Of a stretch of DNA of 42,136 nt, positions 3,458-24,884 are shown one piece after another. The position numbers and the translations under genes are program-made. A model generated the notes under the pieces. The model saw nothing but the letters and a program-made list of their open reading frames with translations, was not told the DNA's origin and did no database searches. This DNA is from a virus: the IMG/VR virus record IMGVR_UViG_3300033149_007257, positions 1-42,136 of that record; one strand, given 5' to 3'. Every line of letters starts with the position of its first letter. Position 1 is the first letter of the stretch.

Positions 3458-4777
3458 TCAAGCACCTTCTGTTTCCGCCCCTTCCTCCTCCGCCGCGTGA
3501 ATCCAAACGAGGGCGTCGGTGTAGTAGTCCTCTCGGATCTCACACGCCACAATCTCCCGTCCACAAGCATGTGCGGCAATCACGCTCGTCCCGCTTCCCA
3601 TCATGGGATCAAGGATGACCTCCTGTGGAAGCGTATAGACCTCTATAATCTCCCGAATGAGCTCTACTGGCTTCGTGGTCGGGTGCCGTCGACCCGCTCC
3701 ACTTGCACGCTCGTGGCGGAACATTGTCCCATGAAAGCTCGTGAGCGCACGTTCGCCCTTCATGAGATCCATAAAGACCTCGTGCTCCGGTGAAAGCCAC
3801 TTATTGTGCGGACGACCTGGGATCTTCTTGTCCCAAATCCCGGGGACGTTTGCGGGGGTGAAGCCGATGTGACGAGCAATGTCGAGCAAGAAGCTATAAT
3901 GTTGCTCACCACAAAACATCACCATATGACGGTCTCTACGCAGGAGACGATAGCACTCCACAAGGAGCCTCTCGATCTGTTCAAGCGCACTCGCTTCTTC
4001 GTCTGTAAACACGTCCGACGTTCTGTCCCCCACGACGGGCTTGTGGTAGTCCCCGTGCGTAAACATCTCGCTCTGGTCAATCCCAATTCCCCATGGAGGG
4101 TCCGCAACGACGAAGTCAAAGCTCTCGTCCGCCAGTTGCTTGGCAAGGACGAAAAAGTCCTTATTGTAGACCCCGTCGAGCTCCCCACGTTCCTTTTTTA
4201 GTTGGTCCGCAAGAAGAATACTGGCCGCCCTTCGGCGGAGTCGTGAGAGCTTTCGGAACGCACGGTTCTTGTTCTTCTCCTTCGCGAGGAGAGGAAGATG
4301 AAGGAGAGCTTCCGCAAGCTGGATGTCCTGCGAGAGCGGACCGACGCTTTGTCCAAGACTCTCCGCAGTGTCACGCAGTCCCCAGCCTTCCTTCTTCTTC
4401 CCGAGGTCTGTTCGTGCGCCCTGTTTTGACTTCCCGTGGAGTGCTTGCTTGAGGAGGTGGAGCTCCCTTTTTGCTTTCACCTCTTCTGTCCACTCCAGGT
4501 CCTTTCGGTGAAGGTTTTCCTCAAGCTCAATCTCAAGACGCTGGAACTCGTCGAGGTCCGAGCGCTTTGTGGCCTCAATCGTTTCCCATCCGAGCTCTTT
4601 CGCCGCGCGGAGACGTCGCTCACCAGCGACAAGAGCCGCTTTTCCGTCGGCTGTTATCTCCACGACGATCGGCTCAATGAGCCCGACGCGCTGCATGCTT
4701 TCACGAAGACCTTGTAGATCTCCAAAATCCTGGCGAAAGCGGTCTCCGATGGTGATGTCACTGATCTTCAGTTGCAT
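3458..4777 (-). CDS. ParB-like domain fused to DNA adenine/cytosine-N4 methyltransferase
   Basis: A 439-aa protein. Residues 1-110 form a ParB/sulfiredoxin-like fold with the GERRLRAAKELGW box (52-64) and ENLHRKDLEW (88-97). An alpha-helical HTH-like segment follows (about 134-158). Residues 205-439 form an amino-methyltransferase with catalytic DPPW (226-229, motif IV) placed before the S-adenosylmethionine motif DPMMGSGTS (390-398, motif I), which is the beta-class order. DPPW favours N6-adenine. No restriction endonuclease lies nearby, so it is an orphan enzyme, probably for protecting or marking phage DNA. Such ParB-methyltransferase fusions are known in phages. ATG 4777 follows AGGAGAGGGAAC. 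The gene is preceded by a structured spacer (4818-4873). Confidence 0.9.
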   Translation of the reverse strand: MQLKISDITIGDRFRQDFGDLQGLRESMQRVGLIEPIVVEITADGKAALVAGERRLRAAKELGWETIEATKRSDLDEFQRLEIELEENLHRKDLEWTEEVKAKRELHLLKQALHGKSKQGARTDLGKKKEGWGLRDTAESLGQSVGPLSQDIQLAEALLHLPLLAKEKNKNRAFRKLSRLRRRAASILLADQLKKERGELDGVYNKDFFVLAKQLADESFDFVVADPPWGIGIDQSEMFTHGDYHKPVVGDRTSDVFTDEEASALEQIERLLVECYRLLRRDRHMVMFCGEQHYSFLLDIARHIGFTPANVPGIWDKKIPGRPHNKWLSPEHEVFMDLMKGERALTSFHGTMFRHERASGAGRRHPTTKPVELIREIIEVYTLPQEVILDPMMGSGTSVIAAHACGREIVACEIREDYYTDALVWIHAAEEEGAETEGA

Positions 4778-10829: not shown

Positions 10830-11222
10830 TTACAGGAGCCCTGCCGCGGCCAGGACCTCGTTCACGGCATCCTGACCAAGCTCCTCCTTGATCTTCTCCA
10901 GGCGCGCACGGACGGACTTCTTCGCCCGTTCCACCTTGCGTGCGGCCTTCTCTTCCTCCGTCAGCGGTTCCCCCGCCTTGTGGAACCCGCTCGCTCCTTT
11001 CGCCTTCGCTGCAGCAGCGAGCTTCATCCCATTCAGGGCGGCGTTCAGCTCGAACTCGTCCGCGAGGTGGAGCGTATAGCCCCCGTTCTTCGCGGCCTTG
11101 AAGTTCACGGGGAAGCTGACGTCTACCTGATGTGGCTGTCCATCCGTGGACTCTCTCGTCCCGATGGTCACCACGCACTTGTAAACACCGTCCACGACCC
11201 TGTTGACGTGCTTTAGCTCCAT
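10830..11222 (-). CDS. Hypothetical 130-aa protein, paralogue of gene 14650-15036
   Basis: It starts MELKHVNRVVDGVYKC, with ATG 11222 after GAAAGGAGGCGTGCA. The N-terminal half is beta-rich; the C-terminal half is a Lys/Glu-rich helix (EEEKAARKVERAKKS). It aligns over its length with the 128-aa gene at 14650-15036: KHxxRxxDGxY near the start, then (S/T)xDGxxH and a FPVNF/FKFSI strand, and PLTEEEK/ATPEEK in the C-terminal helix. The function is unknown; a nucleic-acid-binding role is possible from size and basic helices. It stands alone inside a 17-bp inverted repeat, which is unusual in this densely packed operon. Confidence 0.8.
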   Translation of the reverse strand: MELKHVNRVVDGVYKCVVTIGTRESTDGQPHQVDVSFPVNFKAAKNGGYTLHLADEFELNAALNGMKLAAAAKAKGASGFHKAGEPLTEEEKAARKVERAKKSVRARLEKIKEELGQDAVNEVLAAAGLL

Positions 11223-11252
11223 TGCACGCCTCCTTTCTTTTCGTGAGATGGT

Positions 11253-11269
11253 GTCCACGTGCAACCCAC
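11253..11269. repeat. 17-bp inverted repeat, upstream copy
   Basis: GTCCACGTGCAACCCAC lies in the leader of gene 10830-11222, about 30 bases before its start codon and outside its ribosome site. It pairs perfectly with 10798-10814. A (GAGAGC)3 run lies immediately upstream on the minus strand (about 11275-11292). Confidence 0.85.
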
Positions 11270-12520: not shown

Positions 12521-12921
12521 TCTGACGTCCTCCTCGCAAGCGCCACATACGCCTGCGCAACACCCTGGAGCACCTGGTCCGCGCCTGGAGAGTCCAGTCC
12601 CCTCAACAAAAGTGCCGCCCCAGAGGTGCTCTCCTCATAGGCGACCCTGTTTTCAACATCTGGACGACTTATCCACCACAACATGGCATCCTGCGCCTCG
12701 GACGATGGGATGTCCTTGCAAATCGTCCTCCACGCAACAGCCATGTCGAGACAATGCTCGAGCTGCGACAAGAGCACTTGCCGAGCACGATGTTCCGAGA
12801 CCTTTACCCTTCCGTGTCTCATCCTCCTGTCCTCCTCAAGCTCAAGACGACAGAAATCGCAAAGCTCCGGCCCTGATGCCGTCATCTCACCGCAACGTGG
12901 GCACGTGTGTTTGCCCCTCAT
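12517..12921 (-). CDS. Zinc-ribbon protein, 134 aa
   Basis: An N-terminal zinc ribbon, C7/C10 (CPRCGE) and C21/C24 (CDFC), precedes a helical region rich in Leu and Ala (VLLSQLEHCLDMAVAWR, QVLQGVAQAYVALARR). ATG 12921 follows GTGAGGAGGACG. No exact family is recognised. The zinc ribbon suggests nucleic-acid or protein binding. It overlaps the first gene of the operon by 35 nt. Confidence 0.75.
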   Translation of the reverse strand: MRGKHTCPRCGEMTASGPELCDFCRLELEEDRRMRHGRVKVSEHRARQVLLSQLEHCLDMAVAWRTICKDIPSSEAQDAMLWWISRPDVENRVAYEESTSGAALLLRGLDSPGADQVLQGVAQAYVALARRTSE

Positions 12922-13225
12922 CGTCCTCCTCACATTGTTCTAAACCCAAACGATGTCCTTTCAGTGCCTCCTTGACGATCTTGCTCCAGCACTGCAAGAA
13001 CTGTCCTCCTGACGTGAACATCGTGACCATCCCTGCGAGCCTTTGTCCATCCTCGTCCACGAGCATGTCCGCAGACCCAAGGACGATCTCTCCCACCCTG
13101 ATCGCAATGGGGAGACGTCCCTGGAACCACACCTCCGCCCGTCCGCGCTGAGAGGTCAGGACGCTTCTCGTCCGCCCTGCTCCCCACCGCGAAAAGTCAA
13201 CCTGCGTCCCGTCGCTCCCGCTCAT
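12887..13225 (-). CDS. First gene of the leftward operon, hypothetical 112 aa
   Basis: ATG 13225 follows GTGACAGGAGGACAGGAGG, a double ribosome site. The product is beta-rich early (AEVWFQGRLPIAIRVGEIVL; DMLVDEDGQRLAGMV) and ends in an acidic tail. No family is recognised. As the first cistron after the promoter and the attenuator-like leader it is probably the earliest-made phage protein. Confidence 0.75.
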   Translation of the reverse strand: MSGSDGTQVDFSRWGAGRTRSVLTSQRGRAEVWFQGRLPIAIRVGEIVLGSADMLVDEDGQRLAGMVTMFTSGGQFLQCWSKIVKEALKGHRLGLEQCEEDDEGQTHVPTLR

Positions 13226-13240
13226 CCTCCTGTCCTCCTG

Positions 13241-13312
13241 TCACGAAAAAATGGACGACAAGCGAGTGGGAACCACTGCGACGGCAATGGAGGTTTTTCG
13301 CCTGTCGTCCAT
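13241..13312 (-). CDS. Possible 23-aa leader peptide
   Basis: An ATG at 13312 opens a 23-codon frame (starting MDDRRKTSIAVAVV) that ends at TGA 13241, 15 bases before the first operon gene. It spans the hairpin arms and T-run of the leader, the arrangement seen in translation-controlled attenuators. The ribosome site is weak (AAGAGC), so coding is uncertain. Confidence 0.3.
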   Translation of the reverse strand: MDDRRKTSIAVAVVPTRLSSIFS

Positions 13313-13340
13313 GAGGTTGCTCTTGGTGCAGTGGTTCCCA
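13246..13340 (-). promoter_or_regulatory. Attenuator-like leader with interleaved inverted repeats
   Basis: In RNA order: TGGGAACCACTGC (13340-13328), ATGGACGACAGGCGA (13312-13298), then the perfect 13-nt complement of the first (13279-13267), then a 15-nt complement of the second with one mismatch (13265-13251) followed by UUUUU. The second pair ending in the U-run resembles an intrinsic terminator. The first pair interleaves with it, so the two helices form a pseudoknot or compete as terminator and antiterminator. It lies wholly within the transcribed leader. Confidence 0.65.
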
Positions 13341-13354
13341 TTGTTCTACCTGAC

Positions 13355-13383
13355 ATTATAACGCGCGACGGGGAAATTGTCAA
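13355..13383 (-). promoter_or_regulatory. Perfect sigma70 promoter of the leftward operon
   Basis: On the minus strand TTGACA (13383-13378), a 17-bp spacer and TATAAT (13360-13355) match the bacterial housekeeping consensus exactly. Transcription should begin near 13347, giving a leader of about 120 nt before ATG 13225. Such strength fits an immediate-early promoter served by host RNA polymerase. Confidence 0.88.
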
Positions 13384-13606
13384 GCGAATTGGCGTAACTT
13401 GGAGGGGCTTGTTGTAAGTTATTGGTGAATAAGGCTTTAGGGCAAGGGGGAAAAACTTAGGGCAAGGGCCGGAATGCGCGTTAAGGGCGTTTCGGCGCTG
13501 TTGGCCTAACTCCTTGCGGAATAAGGCTTTAGGAAAAGCGTTGTGCAAATGCAACATTGCCCTAAGTCTTTGCGGAATAAGGCTTTACGTGTTGCAACAA
13601 GCGCCC

Positions 13607-13635
13607 TTTATTGCGAAAACTTGACAACCTGTCAA
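13607..13635 (-). promoter_or_regulatory. Possible second leftward promoter inside the iteron array
   Basis: On the minus strand TTGACA (13635-13630), a 17-bp spacer and AATAAA (13612-13607) form a moderate promoter between iterons 3 and 4. TTGACA is also part of a TTGACA/TGTCAA inverted repeat. The -10 box is weak. Confidence 0.3.
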
Positions 13636-13930
13636 ATTATCATGCCTTTTTGCCTTCTCCTAACTCCTTGCTGTGCAATACGATAGGACGACGATAATTC
13701 TTATGCCATTGGCATTTTCCCTAACTCCTTTGCCCGCAAGGACTTACGCCAATGTCCGGTATCCCAAAACAGACTTCAACACCCGCCCTTGCCCTAAACC
13801 CTTACACTGCAAACACTTAGGACGGCATTTCAACGACCCCAGTTTGCGCTTTTGCCCTAACCCCTTATTCTGCAAACACTTAGGACGACAGCCCGAGAGT
13901 GCTGCAAAAGGGCGCGTCCATGTCCTATAC

Positions 13931-13975
13931 GACATATAGTATGCATATATATATTTAAGTCTATATATAGTATAG
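13931..13975. other. AT-rich block, candidate DNA-unwinding element
   Basis: About 45 bases made of ATATA runs and CTATATATAG-type near-palindromes, standing out in an otherwise GC-balanced genome. Seven iterons lie to its left and two to its right, the layout of an iteron-type replication origin. Function is inferred from composition and context. Confidence 0.6.
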
Positions 13976-13976
13976 T

Positions 13977-13993
13977 CCTGCCAAAGTGGCAGG
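13977..13993. promoter_or_regulatory. Operator-like palindrome, copy 1
   Basis: CCTGCCAAAGTGGCAGG is a perfect 7-bp palindrome around AAG, directly beside the AT-rich block. Its 15-bp core recurs inverted at 14354-14368, so it looks like a protein-binding site rather than a terminator (no T-run). Confidence 0.55.
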
Positions 13994-14276
13994 AGAATTA
14001 AGGTGATTGTGCTGCATTTTTCAACGACCTGTTGAAGTGTCGAGATTCCACAACACTATGTCGGGGGGGAGCTGATCTTCATGTCGAAGAAATTGGCATA
14101 AGTGTTTGCAGTGTAAGGAGTTAGGGCAGAATGGGGGCGCTTCACGATGTTGAACTCAAAAAGGGCATTCCCTAAGTCGTTGCATAGAAAGGCTTTAGGA
14201 AAAGCCTACCATTCCGGTAGGGTTTCAAAAATCGTTGAAATTGTTTCAGCGTCGAGAGGCTTTCCGTGCACACGTT

Positions 14277-14296
14277 CACTCCCAAATTGGGGAGTG
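14277..14296. promoter_or_regulatory. Hairpin-forming inverted repeat
   Basis: CACTCCC and GGGAGTG arms (7 bp) enclose AAATTG. On the plus strand it is followed by GGTGTTTTGG, giving at best a weak terminator for transcripts leaving the iteron region. Confidence 0.35.
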
Positions 14297-14353
14297 GGTG
14301 TTTTGGAGGACAAGGGGCGGATCTGCAGCAGACGGGCCTCTCCCTCGCAAAAG

Positions 14354-14368
14354 TGCCACTTTGGCAGG
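14354..14368. promoter_or_regulatory. Operator-like palindrome, copy 2
   Basis: TGCCACTTTGGCAGG is the reverse complement of 13977-13991. The two copies, 360 bp apart, flank the last two iterons. Confidence 0.5.
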
Positions 14369-14425
14369 AGGGTGGACTACATCGTTCTGAACGAGAACGA
14401 AGTGAGACCGCTTTTTGGATCTGGA

Positions 14426-14447
14426 CGTGTTGAGAAATCTCAACACG
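14426..14447. promoter_or_regulatory. 22-bp perfect palindrome, probable operator
   Basis: CGTGTTGAGA is followed by AA and then its exact reverse complement TCTCAACACG. The 10-bp arms with a 2-bp centre are typical of a dimeric repressor site. No promoter box is obvious beside it and no T-run follows. Confidence 0.5.
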
Positions 14448-14558
14448 CGAGCAGTGCGCTCAAAATGAAACACGGCGGTCGGTGGATTTTGCCTGTGCGT
14501 CGTGCCCTGCGCGTGCGTGCGCTGTGCGTCGTGGATGCTCTCGCACATGCTCCAAAAG

Positions 14559-14585
14559 AAAAACCCTATCGCACAAGCGATAGGG
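14559..14585 (-). terminator. Intrinsic terminator of gene 14650-15036
   Basis: On the minus strand CCCTATCGC, loop TTGT, GCGATAGGG and TTTTT form a canonical rho-independent terminator 65 bp downstream of the gene stop. Confidence 0.9.
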
Positions 14586-14613
14586 CCTTGAATATGCGTC
14601 AAGGGCGCAGGTT

Positions 14614-14645
14614 AACGTCAAGGGAACGTCAAGGGAACGTCAACG
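14614..14645. repeat. Short tandem repeat AACGTCAAGGG
   Basis: Two perfect 11-bp units (14614-14624, 14625-14635) and a partial third lie between the terminator and the stop codon of gene 14650-15036. A related GCGTCAAGGG precedes them. The role is unknown. Confidence 0.7.
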
Positions 14646-14649
14646 TCCG

Positions 14650-15036
14650 TCAATCGTCAGGAATTGCCTCCTTTAGCTGTGCCTTCAGAACCTCGATTGG
14701 GATGCCCGTATCCGCTGAAAGCTTCTCGAGCCTCTTCAGCGTCTGCTCGGCGGCCTTTGCGATCTTCTCTTCCGGCGTCGCAGCATAACGTTTGTCGTAT
14801 CCGCACGTCATGCGCGTTTTCCGGTTCTCAAGAAGCGAACGTCCGTTGACGAAGGAGTTTGCTTCTTCGTCGCTACGGGTTCGGAATATCCATTCTCCAT
14901 CCCTGTGCTCAACGTCAATCGAAAACTTGAATGGGATGTCGTGTGATATTCCGTCGACCGATTGGTCCCTACTGATGTGCGTCGCGCCATGGTAGACGTT
15001 TCCGTCGATTCGTTCAAGGTGCTTATACTTTGCCAT
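14650..15036 (-). CDS. Hypothetical 128-aa protein, stand-alone paralogue of gene 10830-11222
   Basis: It starts MAKYKHLERIDGNVYHG; ATG 15036 follows ACGGAGAACGGTTCC. It has a beta-rich N-terminal half and a charged C-terminal helix (TPEEKIAKAAEQTLKRLEKL). It shares the KHxxRxxDGxY start, the xxDGxxHxxxxF strand and the PEEK helix with the 130-aa operon gene, so the two are diverged duplicates. It is the only gene in the control region, with its own candidate promoter (15209-15236) and strong terminator (14559-14585). That suggests separate timing and possibly a regulator of, or binder to, the origin region (inference). Confidence 0.8.
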   Translation of the reverse strand: MAKYKHLERIDGNVYHGATHISRDQSVDGISHDIPFKFSIDVEHRDGEWIFRTRSDEEANSFVNGRSLLENRKTRMTCGYDKRYAATPEEKIAKAAEQTLKRLEKLSADTGIPIEVLKAQLKEAIPDD

Positions 15037-15142
15037 GGAACCGTTCTCCGTTCTTTGCGCGCCCTTGATCGCATATTCAATTGTCAATGAGCATGAACAT
15101 CATCCCTACATATAGCAATTCCCATGCCAAGCCACAAAACGC

Positions 15143-15161
15143 AACGACAGCGCCTGTCGTT
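15143..15161. promoter_or_regulatory. Inverted repeat in the leader of gene 14650-15036
   Basis: AACGACAG and CTGTCGTT (perfect 8-bp arms, CGC centre). It lies about 110 bp upstream of ATG 15036, downstream of the candidate promoter, so it may be an operator or a leader hairpin. Confidence 0.5.
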
Positions 15162-15182
15162 GAACCTGCCGTGTCCTGCTCT

Positions 15183-15194
15183 GTTACATGTAAC
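15183..15194. promoter_or_regulatory. Palindrome GTTACATGTAAC
   Basis: A perfect 12-bp palindrome just downstream of the candidate leftward -10 box (15209-15214), with a related GGTTACAC at 15203-15210. Its place over the likely transcription start suggests a repressor site. Confidence 0.45.
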
Positions 15195-15208
15195 GCGCTG
15201 AGGGTTAC

Positions 15209-15236
15209 ACTATACAAACGTCCCCTCATCGCGCAA
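15209..15236 (-). promoter_or_regulatory. Candidate promoter of gene 14650-15036
   Basis: On the minus strand TTGCGC (15236-15231), a 16-bp spacer and TATAGT (15214-15209). The -10 box matches five of six positions, the -35 box three of six. Confidence 0.4.
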
Positions 15237-15398
15237 CGTCCGCAAAAAACCCCCACCGTGCGACGGGCGGCGGCCAAAGGACCACCACTAAACCTCCCCA
15301 CTTTTTGAGACCCAGGGAGAGTGAACGACAGAGGGATGAGCGTCGGAGGGAATAGCAAAGGACGACAGAGGGAATGGGAAGAGTGGAGGGTGAGATCA

Positions 15399-15956
15399 AT
15401 GTTGCGTTTTTGGGGTGAGCGATGTATAATGAAGGGTGAAATGGGAAAAGAGCTATTGCCAAAACATCTGTTGCTGGCGTACAGGATCGCGCTCGGGGAT
15501 AGTACGGAAAGTGTCGCGGAAGAGCTTGGGATGGAGCTGCGCGTGGTGGAGACGATCCTGGAGAGTCCTATGATGAAGGAGGAGGTGGATCGGATTCGCC
15601 TGAAGCTCGCGGCGCGCATCAGCGAAGCGATGAACGGGGACGAGGTTGAGCGCCTTCTACAAGGGAGCGCCCCATTGGCTGTCCGAAAGCTGATAGAGCA
15701 GATGCTACAAAACGCGGATCGGAGAACGAGCGCAGCGGCAGCGAAAGACATTCTCAAGCTCGCGGGATATGAAAAGCCGAAGGAGATCGACGTGTCGCAT
15801 GAGTTCCATCTGCCGGACGCGCAAGCAGAATTGCTAAGTCAAACGCTCATGATGATGCGGAGGCGTCGAGAGGAAGCTGGTGACTTAGTGGAGGCCGAAG
15901 TTGTAGATGTCAGAGCTCTCCCAGCAAGAAGTGAAGGAAATGCGAAAGCTGGCTAA
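15399..15956 (+). CDS. terS: Terminase small subunit
   Basis: 185 aa from ATG 15399 (GGAGGGTGAGATCA upstream). Alternative starts at 15429 and 15441 are also plausible, and the open frame extends to 15321. An HTH-like segment (ALGDSTESVAEELGMELRVV) is followed by a helical, basic region and a short acidic tail, typical of small terminases that recognise the packaging site. It lies directly before and overlapping the large subunit by 50 nt, which supports the call. A possible promoter (15402-15430) overlaps the front of the gene and would favour the start at 15441. Confidence 0.72.
   Translation: MLRFWGERCIMKGEMGKELLPKHLLLAYRIALGDSTESVAEELGMELRVVETILESPMMKEEVDRIRLKLAARISEAMNGDEVERLLQGSAPLAVRKLIEQMLQNADRRTSAAAAKDILKLAGYEKPKEIDVSHEFHLPDAQAELLSQTLMMMRRRREEAGDLVEAEVVDVRALPARSEGNAKAG
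15402..15430 (+). promoter_or_regulatory. Candidate rightward (late) promoter
   Basis: TTGCGT (15402-15407), a 17-bp spacer and a perfect TATAAT (15425-15430). Initiation near 15437 would give an almost leaderless start at ATG 15441 of the terminase small subunit. It is the best candidate found for the virion gene operon. Confidence 0.4.
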
Positions 15957-17442
15957 GGAAAGTCTCTTTTTCCTCGCCAGGGGGGTGCTTGGGTTTGACC
16001 AGGTCACGGATCATTTCCACATGGATGTGTGCAGCTTCCTGGAGAGCGATCACAAGAGGAAGCTCTTGTGCCTGCCGAGGGGGTTCCTTAAAACAACGCT
16101 GGGCTCCAAGGCACGCCCGATACAGGTGTCCTTGCAAAACCCAGGTGTTGCACAGTTGATCGTATGTCAACAACATGACAATGCGCGGAAGATTCTCGGA
16201 GACATTCGGGAGCTCTGGGAGAGGAACATGTTGTTGAGGGAGCTATTCCCCGAGCTGGTCCCGAAGACGGATAGGAAGTGGAACTCTGACGAGGCATGCC
16301 TTGCGAGACCACGGGGCACGTTTAGTCAACAGGAGAGCACGTACGAAAGCGCAGGGATCGGAACGCAGCTTCAAAGTAGGCACTATGACAAGATCTACGC
16401 TGACGACCTCATCGTCGCAAAGAAGGATCAAGTGACAGGGACGTGGATGCAGCCGTCGGAAGAAGACATCCAAAAGGCAATCGGGTGGCATCAAATGACC
16501 TGGGGCTTGTTGAGGAATGTGAAGACCTCAGAGTACATGCAGATCATGACCCGCTGGTGCCCAAATGATCTATATGACTATCTCACGAAGAACGAGCCGA
16601 GGACGTGGAAGGTCATGCTACGTGGGGCGCTGGACAGTTCGGGGGAGCCGCTGTTCCCAGAAAAGTACTCAAAGGAGGTGTTGGAAAACATCCTGGCGAG
16701 TCAGGGGATGTATAAGTACTCTACGCAATATCTCTCGTCTCCTGTGGACGACTCAAGCCTCATTTTCAAAGACCTGTATGGAGTCTATATGAAAGACGAG
16801 ATGCCTGCGCTTTCGTCCTTTAAGCTCATTGGTGCGGCATGTGATCCTGCCATCGGACAGAAACGGACAAACCATCCCAGCGCGATTGCCGTGGGAGGTT
16901 TAATGGAGGATGGTCGGCGCTATGTGCTTGACATGTTCTCTGGGCGCGTGACGCCAAGCGAGCTTGTCGCAAAGATCATTCAGCTTTGGCGGAAGTGGAG
17001 GTTCAAGCGCTTTGTGGTTGAGGTTGTCGCCTACCAGGAAGCCCTTAAGTATGCGCTCGAGGAGGTCTTCCACAAGGAGGGCGGGACACTCTTTCGCATC
17101 GTCCCAGTACGCCCAGGGACAAATCAAAGCAAGAGCGCGCGTATTGAGGGAATGCAGCCGTCGTTCAAGGCTGGTTGGTGGTACGTCCGAAATGACCTCC
17201 GAGAGCTCCGAGAGGAGCTTGACCAATATCCCTTTTCGACCTTTAGAGATTCACTTGATGCTCTCGCGTGGTTGCAGACACTTTTCCCTCCGAGCAAAGG
17301 GTGGCACGAACAAAAGGAAAAGCAAAAGACCGTCGTGAACAACGCACGGATCACGTACGAGGAAATAATGAAGTCCTTTGAGACGACAAGAGAAGGTTCT
17401 CTTGCGAAGTTCTACGATGTTCAACTTGCGGGGAGACGATGA
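15907..17442 (+). CDS. terL: Terminase large subunit
   Basis: 511 aa. ATPase domain: Walker A LPRGFLKTT (56-64, K62), Walker B KIYADDLI (162-169). Nuclease domain: acidic residues D313 (CDPAIG), E372 (VVEVVAYQEA) and D451 (RDSLDALAW), the RNase H-like arrangement of terminase nucleases. It cuts and pumps the DNA concatemer into proheads through the portal. The start at 15907 has GGAGG at a long distance; ATG 15940 with GAAGGAA is an alternative. Its stop overlaps the next start (ATGATG). Confidence 0.95.
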   Translation: MSELSQQEVKEMRKLAKESLFFLARGVLGFDQVTDHFHMDVCSFLESDHKRKLLCLPRGFLKTTLGSKARPIQVSLQNPGVAQLIVCQQHDNARKILGDIRELWERNMLLRELFPELVPKTDRKWNSDEACLARPRGTFSQQESTYESAGIGTQLQSRHYDKIYADDLIVAKKDQVTGTWMQPSEEDIQKAIGWHQMTWGLLRNVKTSEYMQIMTRWCPNDLYDYLTKNEPRTWKVMLRGALDSSGEPLFPEKYSKEVLENILASQGMYKYSTQYLSSPVDDSSLIFKDLYGVYMKDEMPALSSFKLIGAACDPAIGQKRTNHPSAIAVGGLMEDGRRYVLDMFSGRVTPSELVAKIIQLWRKWRFKRFVVEVVAYQEALKYALEEVFHKEGGTLFRIVPVRPGTNQSKSARIEGMQPSFKAGWWYVRNDLRELREELDQYPFSTFRDSLDALAWLQTLFPPSKGWHEQKEKQKTVVNNARITYEEIMKSFETTREGSLAKFYDVQLAGRR

Positions 17443-23919: not shown

Positions 23920-24884
23920 TGTCGGACGATTCTGGACAGAACGCGAGCCTTCAAATGATCGTCAATGCGATCTTTGAGCTCGCCAGACAGACGAGCAGTG
24001 CCATTTCCCTTGCACCGCACGCCTCCCAGCATGCCAGTGGCCTCGGGGATGAGTTTGATGGGGACAACGCGGACATCGACTGGGATCCCTCAAACTACAC
24101 CCCCGATGCCACTCCAGCGGAGGCCAGTGGCGTGGACAGCCTCACGGCGCACCTGAAGGGCATAGACACCGTGCTCGGGAGCGTTGTGTCTGGTCCAGGA
24201 GCAAACACTGACGGATTTATTCCACAGTGGGATGGAGATAATTCGCTGCTCCTCAAGAGTGGACTTTCGTTCGCTACTACAGTTGGAGATCCAGGGTCCG
24301 ATACAACGCTCGTGTCCGAGCAGGGCATCAGAGAGGCTTTAGACGCTGGTGCTCATGGGACAACTGCCGATTGGAAGGACCACGCAGATGTAAACGCGGC
24401 GATCAGTGACAGTGATGCCCAAGGGGATATTATTCACAGGGACGCCACGGAATGGAATCGCCTTGCGAAGGGGACTGATGGGCAGTGTCTCAAGAGCGGG
24501 GCCTCGGACGTCTCGTGGGAGGATGACATCGCGCCGCTCGAGATTATTATTGACGGCGGCGGAAGTGCTATCACAACCGGGGAAAAGGGACATATCGAGG
24601 TCCCCTACGATTGCACGATCCAGCGTGTTACGCTCTTGGCCGACCAAAGTGGCTCGATTGTGGTTGACATATGGAAAGGTACGTACGCAGACTTTCCACC
24701 GACGGACGTCGACAGCATCACGGCCAGCGCCCCGCCCACGATATCTTCGGCACAGAAATCGCAAGACTCAACGTTGAGCGGGTGGACAACGAGCGTCGCT
24801 GCTGGGGACATTCTTGCGTTCAATGTGGATTCGGCAAGCACGATTACCCGAGTGACGTTGTCTCTTAAGGTGAAGAAGACGTGA
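23916..24884 (+). CDS. Phage fibre/whisker-like structural protein
   Basis: 322 aa from ATG 23916 (AGAGGAAG upstream); the longer frame to 23790 is a shadow. N-terminal helix (LQMIVNAIFELARQTSSA), then SQHASGLGDEFDGDNADID, then repeat-like GFIPQWDGDNSLLLKSG. The C-terminal ~120 residues (GEKGHIEVPYDCTI; LLADQSGSIVVDIWKGTYA; AGDILAFNVDSASTITRV) match a domain I know from many phage tail and decoration proteins. Probably surface-exposed. Confidence 0.72.
   Translation: MMSDDSGQNASLQMIVNAIFELARQTSSAISLAPHASQHASGLGDEFDGDNADIDWDPSNYTPDATPAEASGVDSLTAHLKGIDTVLGSVVSGPGANTDGFIPQWDGDNSLLLKSGLSFATTVGDPGSDTTLVSEQGIREALDAGAHGTTADWKDHADVNAAISDSDAQGDIIHRDATEWNRLAKGTDGQCLKSGASDVSWEDDIAPLEIIIDGGGSAITTGEKGHIEVPYDCTIQRVTLLADQSGSIVVDIWKGTYADFPPTDVDSITASAPPTISSAQKSQDSTLSGWTTSVAAGDILAFNVDSASTITRVTLSLKVKKT

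Follow-up and report, generated by a model that had tools for sequence, protein, structure and literature searches.

Nine palindromes beside a putative early promoter belong to a widespread family of phage sites and are a probable operator array

What are nine 29-bp palindromes for when they stand together in the largest non-coding region of a 42-kb phage? The virus record that we call the window, meaning the whole stretch of DNA analysed, has 42,136 bases. Its first 114 bases recur as its last 114, and it was accordingly treated as a circle of 42,022 bp, with a primase gene spanning the junction. The leftward arm encodes a PD-(D/E)XK exonuclease, a Sak4-like ATPase, a ParB_N-methyltransferase fusion and a polA fused to a uracil-DNA-glycosylase (UDG) domain; the terminase and the major head protein are found in the rightward arm. 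Positions 13226–14649 hold, in our judgement, no convincing gene, and a search of the window for known RNA families and tRNAs returned none. A sequence-only reading had proposed that the palindromes form a candidate origin or a partition-like site, and we asked if either proposal fits what surrounds them.

The repeats themselves are as that reading described them. All nine imperfect palindromes are present without gaps at 13413–14199 and nowhere else in the phage, and each fits the proposed conserved boxes around a 7-bp centre (CCTAAnnCCTT-N7-AAGGnnTTAGG) with 0–4 mismatches. At the level of ≤4 mismatches, 0.075 matches would be expected by chance in Markov sequence of the window's length, and the next best place in the window has 6 mismatches. 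The copies are unequal, the weakest being those at 13413 and 13659, the latter with 3 mismatches. The single inverted copy that had been noted is the one at 14097, its stretch being 93% complementary to 13790–13819. No other 45-mer of the window is as rich in A+T as the block amid the repeats, the runner-up reaching 69%. At the edge of this block (13976–13991) lies one copy of an exact 16-bp inverted repeat, TCCTGCCAAAGTGGCA, whose partner is ~360 bp away (14354–14369).

Table 1. Features in and around the non-coding region; bits are scores against the family matrix.
Feature	Position	Strand	Remarks
First ORF 3' of the putative early promoter	12887–13225	−	112 aa, without family match; rest of the leftward arm lies beyond
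Putative early promoter	13355–13383	−	TTGACA-17-TATAAT, 12/12 consensus bases; reads into the leftward replication arm
Palindrome 1 (promoter-proximal; TGTAAGTTATTGGTGAATAAGGCTTTAGG)	13413–13441		4 mismatches; 22.9 bits; 29 bp from the −35 box
Palindrome 2	13505–13533		30.8 bits
Palindrome 3	13561–13589		30.7 bits
Palindrome 4 (weakest)	13659–13687		15.9 bits
Palindrome 5 (best fit to the family matrix)	13720–13748		34.4 bits
Palindrome 6	13793–13821		27.1 bits
Palindrome 7	13856–13884		26.8 bits
AT-rich block	13932–13976		82% A+T, runs of ATATATATATT and TATATATA; similar blocks inside relatives' clusters
Palindrome 8 (opposite orientation to the others)	14097–14125		25.1 bits
Palindrome 9	14171–14199		29.7 bits

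Absent from the earlier description is the putative promoter next to palindrome 1, the outermost copy, which is the only match in the window, on either strand, to a strict sigma70-type pattern. The leader of the putative early transcript contains two inverted repeats (13251–13340), one of which is a perfect 13-bp stem, TGGGAACCACTGC / GCAGTGGTTCCCA.

Looking for the consensus in other phages, a check that the sequence-only reading had itself suggested, we found matches in at least 120 contig stretches of an IMG/VR scan, many of which carry numerous related palindromes, up to about 1 per kb. A family matrix trained on those 120 other viral contigs, with the window data left out, finds 858 sites as against 1 in shuffled sequence. 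This independent matrix scores the nine window copies at 15.9–34.4 bits and the rest of the window at −2.7 or below; since it finds all nine, the window repeats are one lineage of a larger, widespread family of phage sites. Family half-sites are near C[C/G]TAAGTCCTT, and the 7-bp centre is low in information. Among the matches listed, the sites stand mostly in pairs, at a spacing that is most often 53 bp (280 pairs), less commonly 42, 41 or 52 bp, and in whole records with listed matches nearly all sites fall within one block of roughly 4–14 kb per genome. The carriers range from small polA podovirus-like phages and 40–60-kb phages to contigs of up to 238 kb, with no detectable shared regulator. 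A spacing rule of integer helical turns between sites was also considered, and it fails in the 50- and 58-bp pair classes and in several of the window's eight gaps; recoding of genes in site-rich contigs was unsupported, judging from open-frame coverage. A small gene family (MAKFAIIENAKRQAR...) is found near palindromes in 25 loci, twice in L102 and also in L088, L121 and L124, and may travel with the palindrome element. The site family is apparently undescribed so far: the papers searched contained no description of it, sequence strings looked up in the literature led to nothing relevant except one primer in a paper on ICEclc, and no convincing counterpart came up when annotated phage and plasmid records were searched at the nucleotide level.

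Across the family, promoters stand at preferred positions relative to the sites. A sigma70-type promoter-like match lies within 140 bp on exactly one side in 151 of 260 unique 53-bp pair units; a similar tally gave 140 of 253, none with a promoter on both sides, at a random rate of 7% per side. Promoters at family sites point outward in 209 cases vs inward in 30, and in 204 of 464 units (about 44%) neither side has a promoter match. Measured from the second palindrome, the −35 box lies most often at 18, 28–29, 39 and 50 bp, and the distances are phased at 10.5 bp (n = 192, R = 0.57; the nominal p of 5e-28 is inflated by kinship). Since the 120 contigs are not independent, many of them having genes in common (87 fall in one connected group), we collapsed units differing at 20 or fewer of 58 positions. 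The 34 units left gave R = 0.55 (p = 3e-5), and promoters aimed into the sites gave R = 0.14. For replication we used the matches listed in a second viral scan, with units near the first set removed and the phase kept from the first set. The first test run, over all spacing classes, gave a mean cosine of 0.26 (59 units, p = 0.0025); a stricter all-class set of 14 units showed no phasing, and 19 inward promoters gave R = 0.35. For the 52/53-bp class, 22 new units gave a mean cosine of 0.66 with p = 6e-6, a value that calls for caution since the restriction to this class was chosen after the all-class result had been seen; 9 stricter units gave p = 0.02. Phasing was not clear in pairs spaced 50 bp, and TTGAC boxes without a −10 match showed some as well (R = 0.28). 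The sites thus lie at helically phased distances from sigma70-type promoters, as in an activator array, and do so more weakly when all spacing classes are taken together. The window agrees with the family, its 29 bp between palindrome 1 and the −35 box falling in the 28–29-bp peak.

The class of promoter is not uniform, since sigma54-like boxes also stand beside many sites. Allowing at most 1 mismatch, L005–L124 contain 54 such boxes and shuffled sequence contains 1. A family palindrome stands in the 200 bp upstream of the box in 20 cases and in the 200 bp downstream of it in 30. The window has a sigma54-like sequence of its own, TTGGCATGGGAATTGCT (15130–15114, minus strand, 1 mismatch), ~27 bp 5' of the listed start of gene 14650–15087, and an inverted repeat, CAACGACAGGCGCTGTCGTTG (15142–15162), lies just upstream of it.

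The fixed helical turns between family sites and early promoters most likely mean that the sites control early genes rather than (only) mark an origin. In the window, a dimeric protein probably binds the nine palindromes and acts through them on the early promoter, and hence on the leftward replication operon. One subunit of the predicted dimer would contact each half-site (about CCTAAGTCCTT), across the loosely constrained 7-bp centre. Protein bound at the promoter-nearest site, at its phased distance, would face RNA polymerase from a fixed side, and the further sites could add stability to the complex through cooperativity or wrapping. The promoter at 13383 would then be used early, and the net effect of binding may be activation and not repression; its sequence is so close to consensus, though, that it may need no activator.

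One finding that speaks against the operator reading is that no binder was recognised among the window proteins. Those with detectable homologues in cluster-bearing relatives are only polA, Sak4 and the exonuclease, i.e. replication and recombination proteins, and the ParB-methyltransferase. The last had been put forward as the binder, which is unlikely because the relatives L195 and L197 encode annotated ParB (and annotated polA) and lack the sites. Neither is there support for the other proposed binders, a pair of paralogous proteins (10830–11264 and 14650–15087), as no homologue of them was found in cluster-bearing relatives. The two share 28% identity and have no family match above the cut-off, and one of them adjoins the cluster. 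Among 20 cluster-bearing records, phage-encoded sigma54 activators, another candidate, are nearly absent (domain above cut-off only in G017), and a search for Fis-type HTH_8 domains in the same records found none. The binder is perhaps encoded by the host, a host protein being the simplest one to infer.

Single-sequence scans with the terminase, a paralogue or polA found no close relatives, and a polA alignment gave 80 relatives at 28–38% identity. Palindrome clusters are present at about ten relative loci, with spacings mostly of 62–65 and 74–75 bp; the relatives L195, L196 and L197 are without family sites. The distance from cluster to promoter is 19, 19, 50 and 50 bp in L234, L252, L242 and L261, of which the last three are apparently close kin of one another. 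At L212, L213, L217 and L227 a sigma54-like sequence begins 3–4 bp past the last palindrome, and it is an exact consensus in L212 and L213.

It is possible, and compatible with the operator reading, that an initiator binds the palindromes and the AT-rich block among them unwinds, in a region that perhaps also houses the early promoter; we regard this as a tentative reading. The cluster of the window does enclose the most AT-rich 45 bp and lies in the largest non-coding region, at the minimum of cumulative GC skew (13,894). Moreover, an ATATA block lies within the clusters of L261, L234, L227 and L212, with short repeats of opposite direction on its two flanks, and in three of four records (G021, G022 and G026) the sole 45-bp block of at least 91% A+T is inside the cluster. 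In those same three records, however, the GC skew turns near the gene-strand switch and away from the cluster, so that it does not follow the repeats regardless of gene direction; the AT block is therefore best taken as a companion of the cluster, and skew as no evidence for an origin. Skew also turns near the arm divergence in the site-less relatives L195 and L197. Other phages carry the same sites as dispersed promoter-upstream pairs, many per genome. As the earlier reading had stated, no initiator gene is recognised among the scanned genes, in which polA, primase, Sak4 and exonuclease are found, though a protein without assigned function might fill that role; a DnaA box is likewise absent from the cluster, the only exact TTATNCACA of the window lying at 24430. 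The spacing of 56–241 bp and the 29-bp dyads are unlike plasmid iterons, which are generally short and in tandem. In favour of the origin proposal stands the AT-rich block that recurs in clusters of polA relatives, together with the skew minimum in the window, and the use of the sites elsewhere, the skew of three relatives and the lack of a recognised initiator and of a DnaA box in the cluster count against it. As a separate observation, L261 (3050–3330) and L234 (2970–3260) carry CAAACTTCTACA repeats on one side of the AT block and their complement on the other, which makes a second candidate iteron set. A wider proposal, in which a conserved host protein recognises a single 29-bp operator family and so drives the early genes of varied phages, with the array doubling as a replication origin in the polA clade, is rather unlikely.

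The same sites could instead be repressor operators, at which bound protein silences the early promoter in a lysogeny-type control or an early shut-off. A promoter this close to consensus has more need of a repressor than of an activator, and helical phasing would be expected as well if a repressor touched RNA polymerase or closed a loop. Yet no site overlaps the promoter, the nearest ending 29 bp upstream of the −35 box, and neither a repressor nor an integrase was recognised among the genes scanned, so that we consider repression unlikely. It is much less probable still that the elements work as RNA, in promoter-plus-stem-loop cassettes whose palindromes end an upstream transcript. Family elements do adjoin promoters in many phages, as palindrome 1 of the window adjoins its putative early promoter, and there is dyad symmetry in the spacer between paired palindromes. 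The arms, however, covary positively, as those of a conserved hairpin would, at position 2 only. A first sample gave less complementarity at positions 6–8 than expected, evidence against a conserved RNA hairpin; a second gave values equal to expectation or slightly lower, the arm mismatch signal being largely not replicated there. The mean folding energy of the 29-mers is weak (−4.6 kcal/mol), and none of 7 terminator-like matches in 12800–16000 falls within a palindrome; covariation and terminator-like matches are indirect tests, and neither points to a stem-loop terminator. The central spacer, considered separately as a conserved hairpin, showed weak covariation only. Finally, that the ParB-methyltransferase binds the palindromes as a centromere or partition site, the other role first proposed, is hardly credible: one protein of the phage does combine ParB_N with a DNA methylase, but no parS-like 16-bp palindrome occurs even within 3 mismatches, Pfam gives only ParB_N and methylase domains in 3458–4777 with no ParB HTH DNA-binding domain, and L195 and L197 have annotated ParB without the sites.

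Matches to the palindrome are also found in bacterial genomes, about a quarter of them just 3' of tRNA genes. The symmetric form lies ~0–21 bp from tRNA gene 3' ends in several phyla (L126, L131, L138, L139, L148, L152, L159, L161, L167 and L171); integrase-like ORFs were seen by eye near the palindrome in L139 and L148. On a Verrucomicrobiae chromosome (L129, L187) a palindrome lies ~85 bp upstream of the start of a multicopy ORF that looks transposase-like by eye. We considered these matches as host operators and rejected the idea: they have no clear link to promoters, and some are near integrase-like or transposase-like ORFs. Lacking that link, the bacterial matches may be another thing.

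One site family thus recurs across several viral lineages. If one host protein reads the site, many environmental phages would share a dependence on it, and it would offer a lead to their hosts. The site could also flag early-gene blocks in viral contigs that have little other annotation.

How does the family compare with known systems? Integron attC sites are palindromic elements with an RYYYAAC / GTTRRRY core at their outer ends. Like them, the palindromes of other phages lie between small genes in a block; unlike them, most half-sites lack the AAC/GTT core (half-site position 6 is G in 62%, A in 26% and C in 12%), and no gene cassettes lie between the window sites. A second comparison is with the promoter early stem-loops (PeSLs) of T4-type phages (Arbiol et al. 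2010; Comeau et al. 2014; both as cited in PMC4503421). Both are palindromic intergenic elements beside early promoters, repeated across a block of phage genes. As far as the titles describe them, PeSLs are composite promoter-terminator motifs, whereas here the arms show little covariation and the promoter stands at helically phased distances; the window, moreover, has nine sites and one promoter.

In iteron and AT-rich origins, such as plasmid oriV and the layout of herpesvirus oriS, repeated binding sites surround an AT-rich block. The window repeats do so too, but in other phages the sites are promoter-upstream pairs, no initiator was found among the scanned genes, and the skew turns away from the cluster in three relatives. 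Arrays of upstream activator sites, such as those of CRP at class I promoters and of Fis at rRNA promoters, consist of dyad sites 5' of sigma70 promoters that keep to one helical face. To our knowledge, the 29-bp site, with its 11-bp half-sites and 7-bp centre, matches no known activator site. Unlike those arrays, it is shared by phages without a detectable common regulator, and its nine copies in the window reach 0.8 kb upstream around an AT-rich block. What the family has in common with activator arrays is the placing of its dyads, upstream of sigma70 promoters and at distances that keep the face of the helix.
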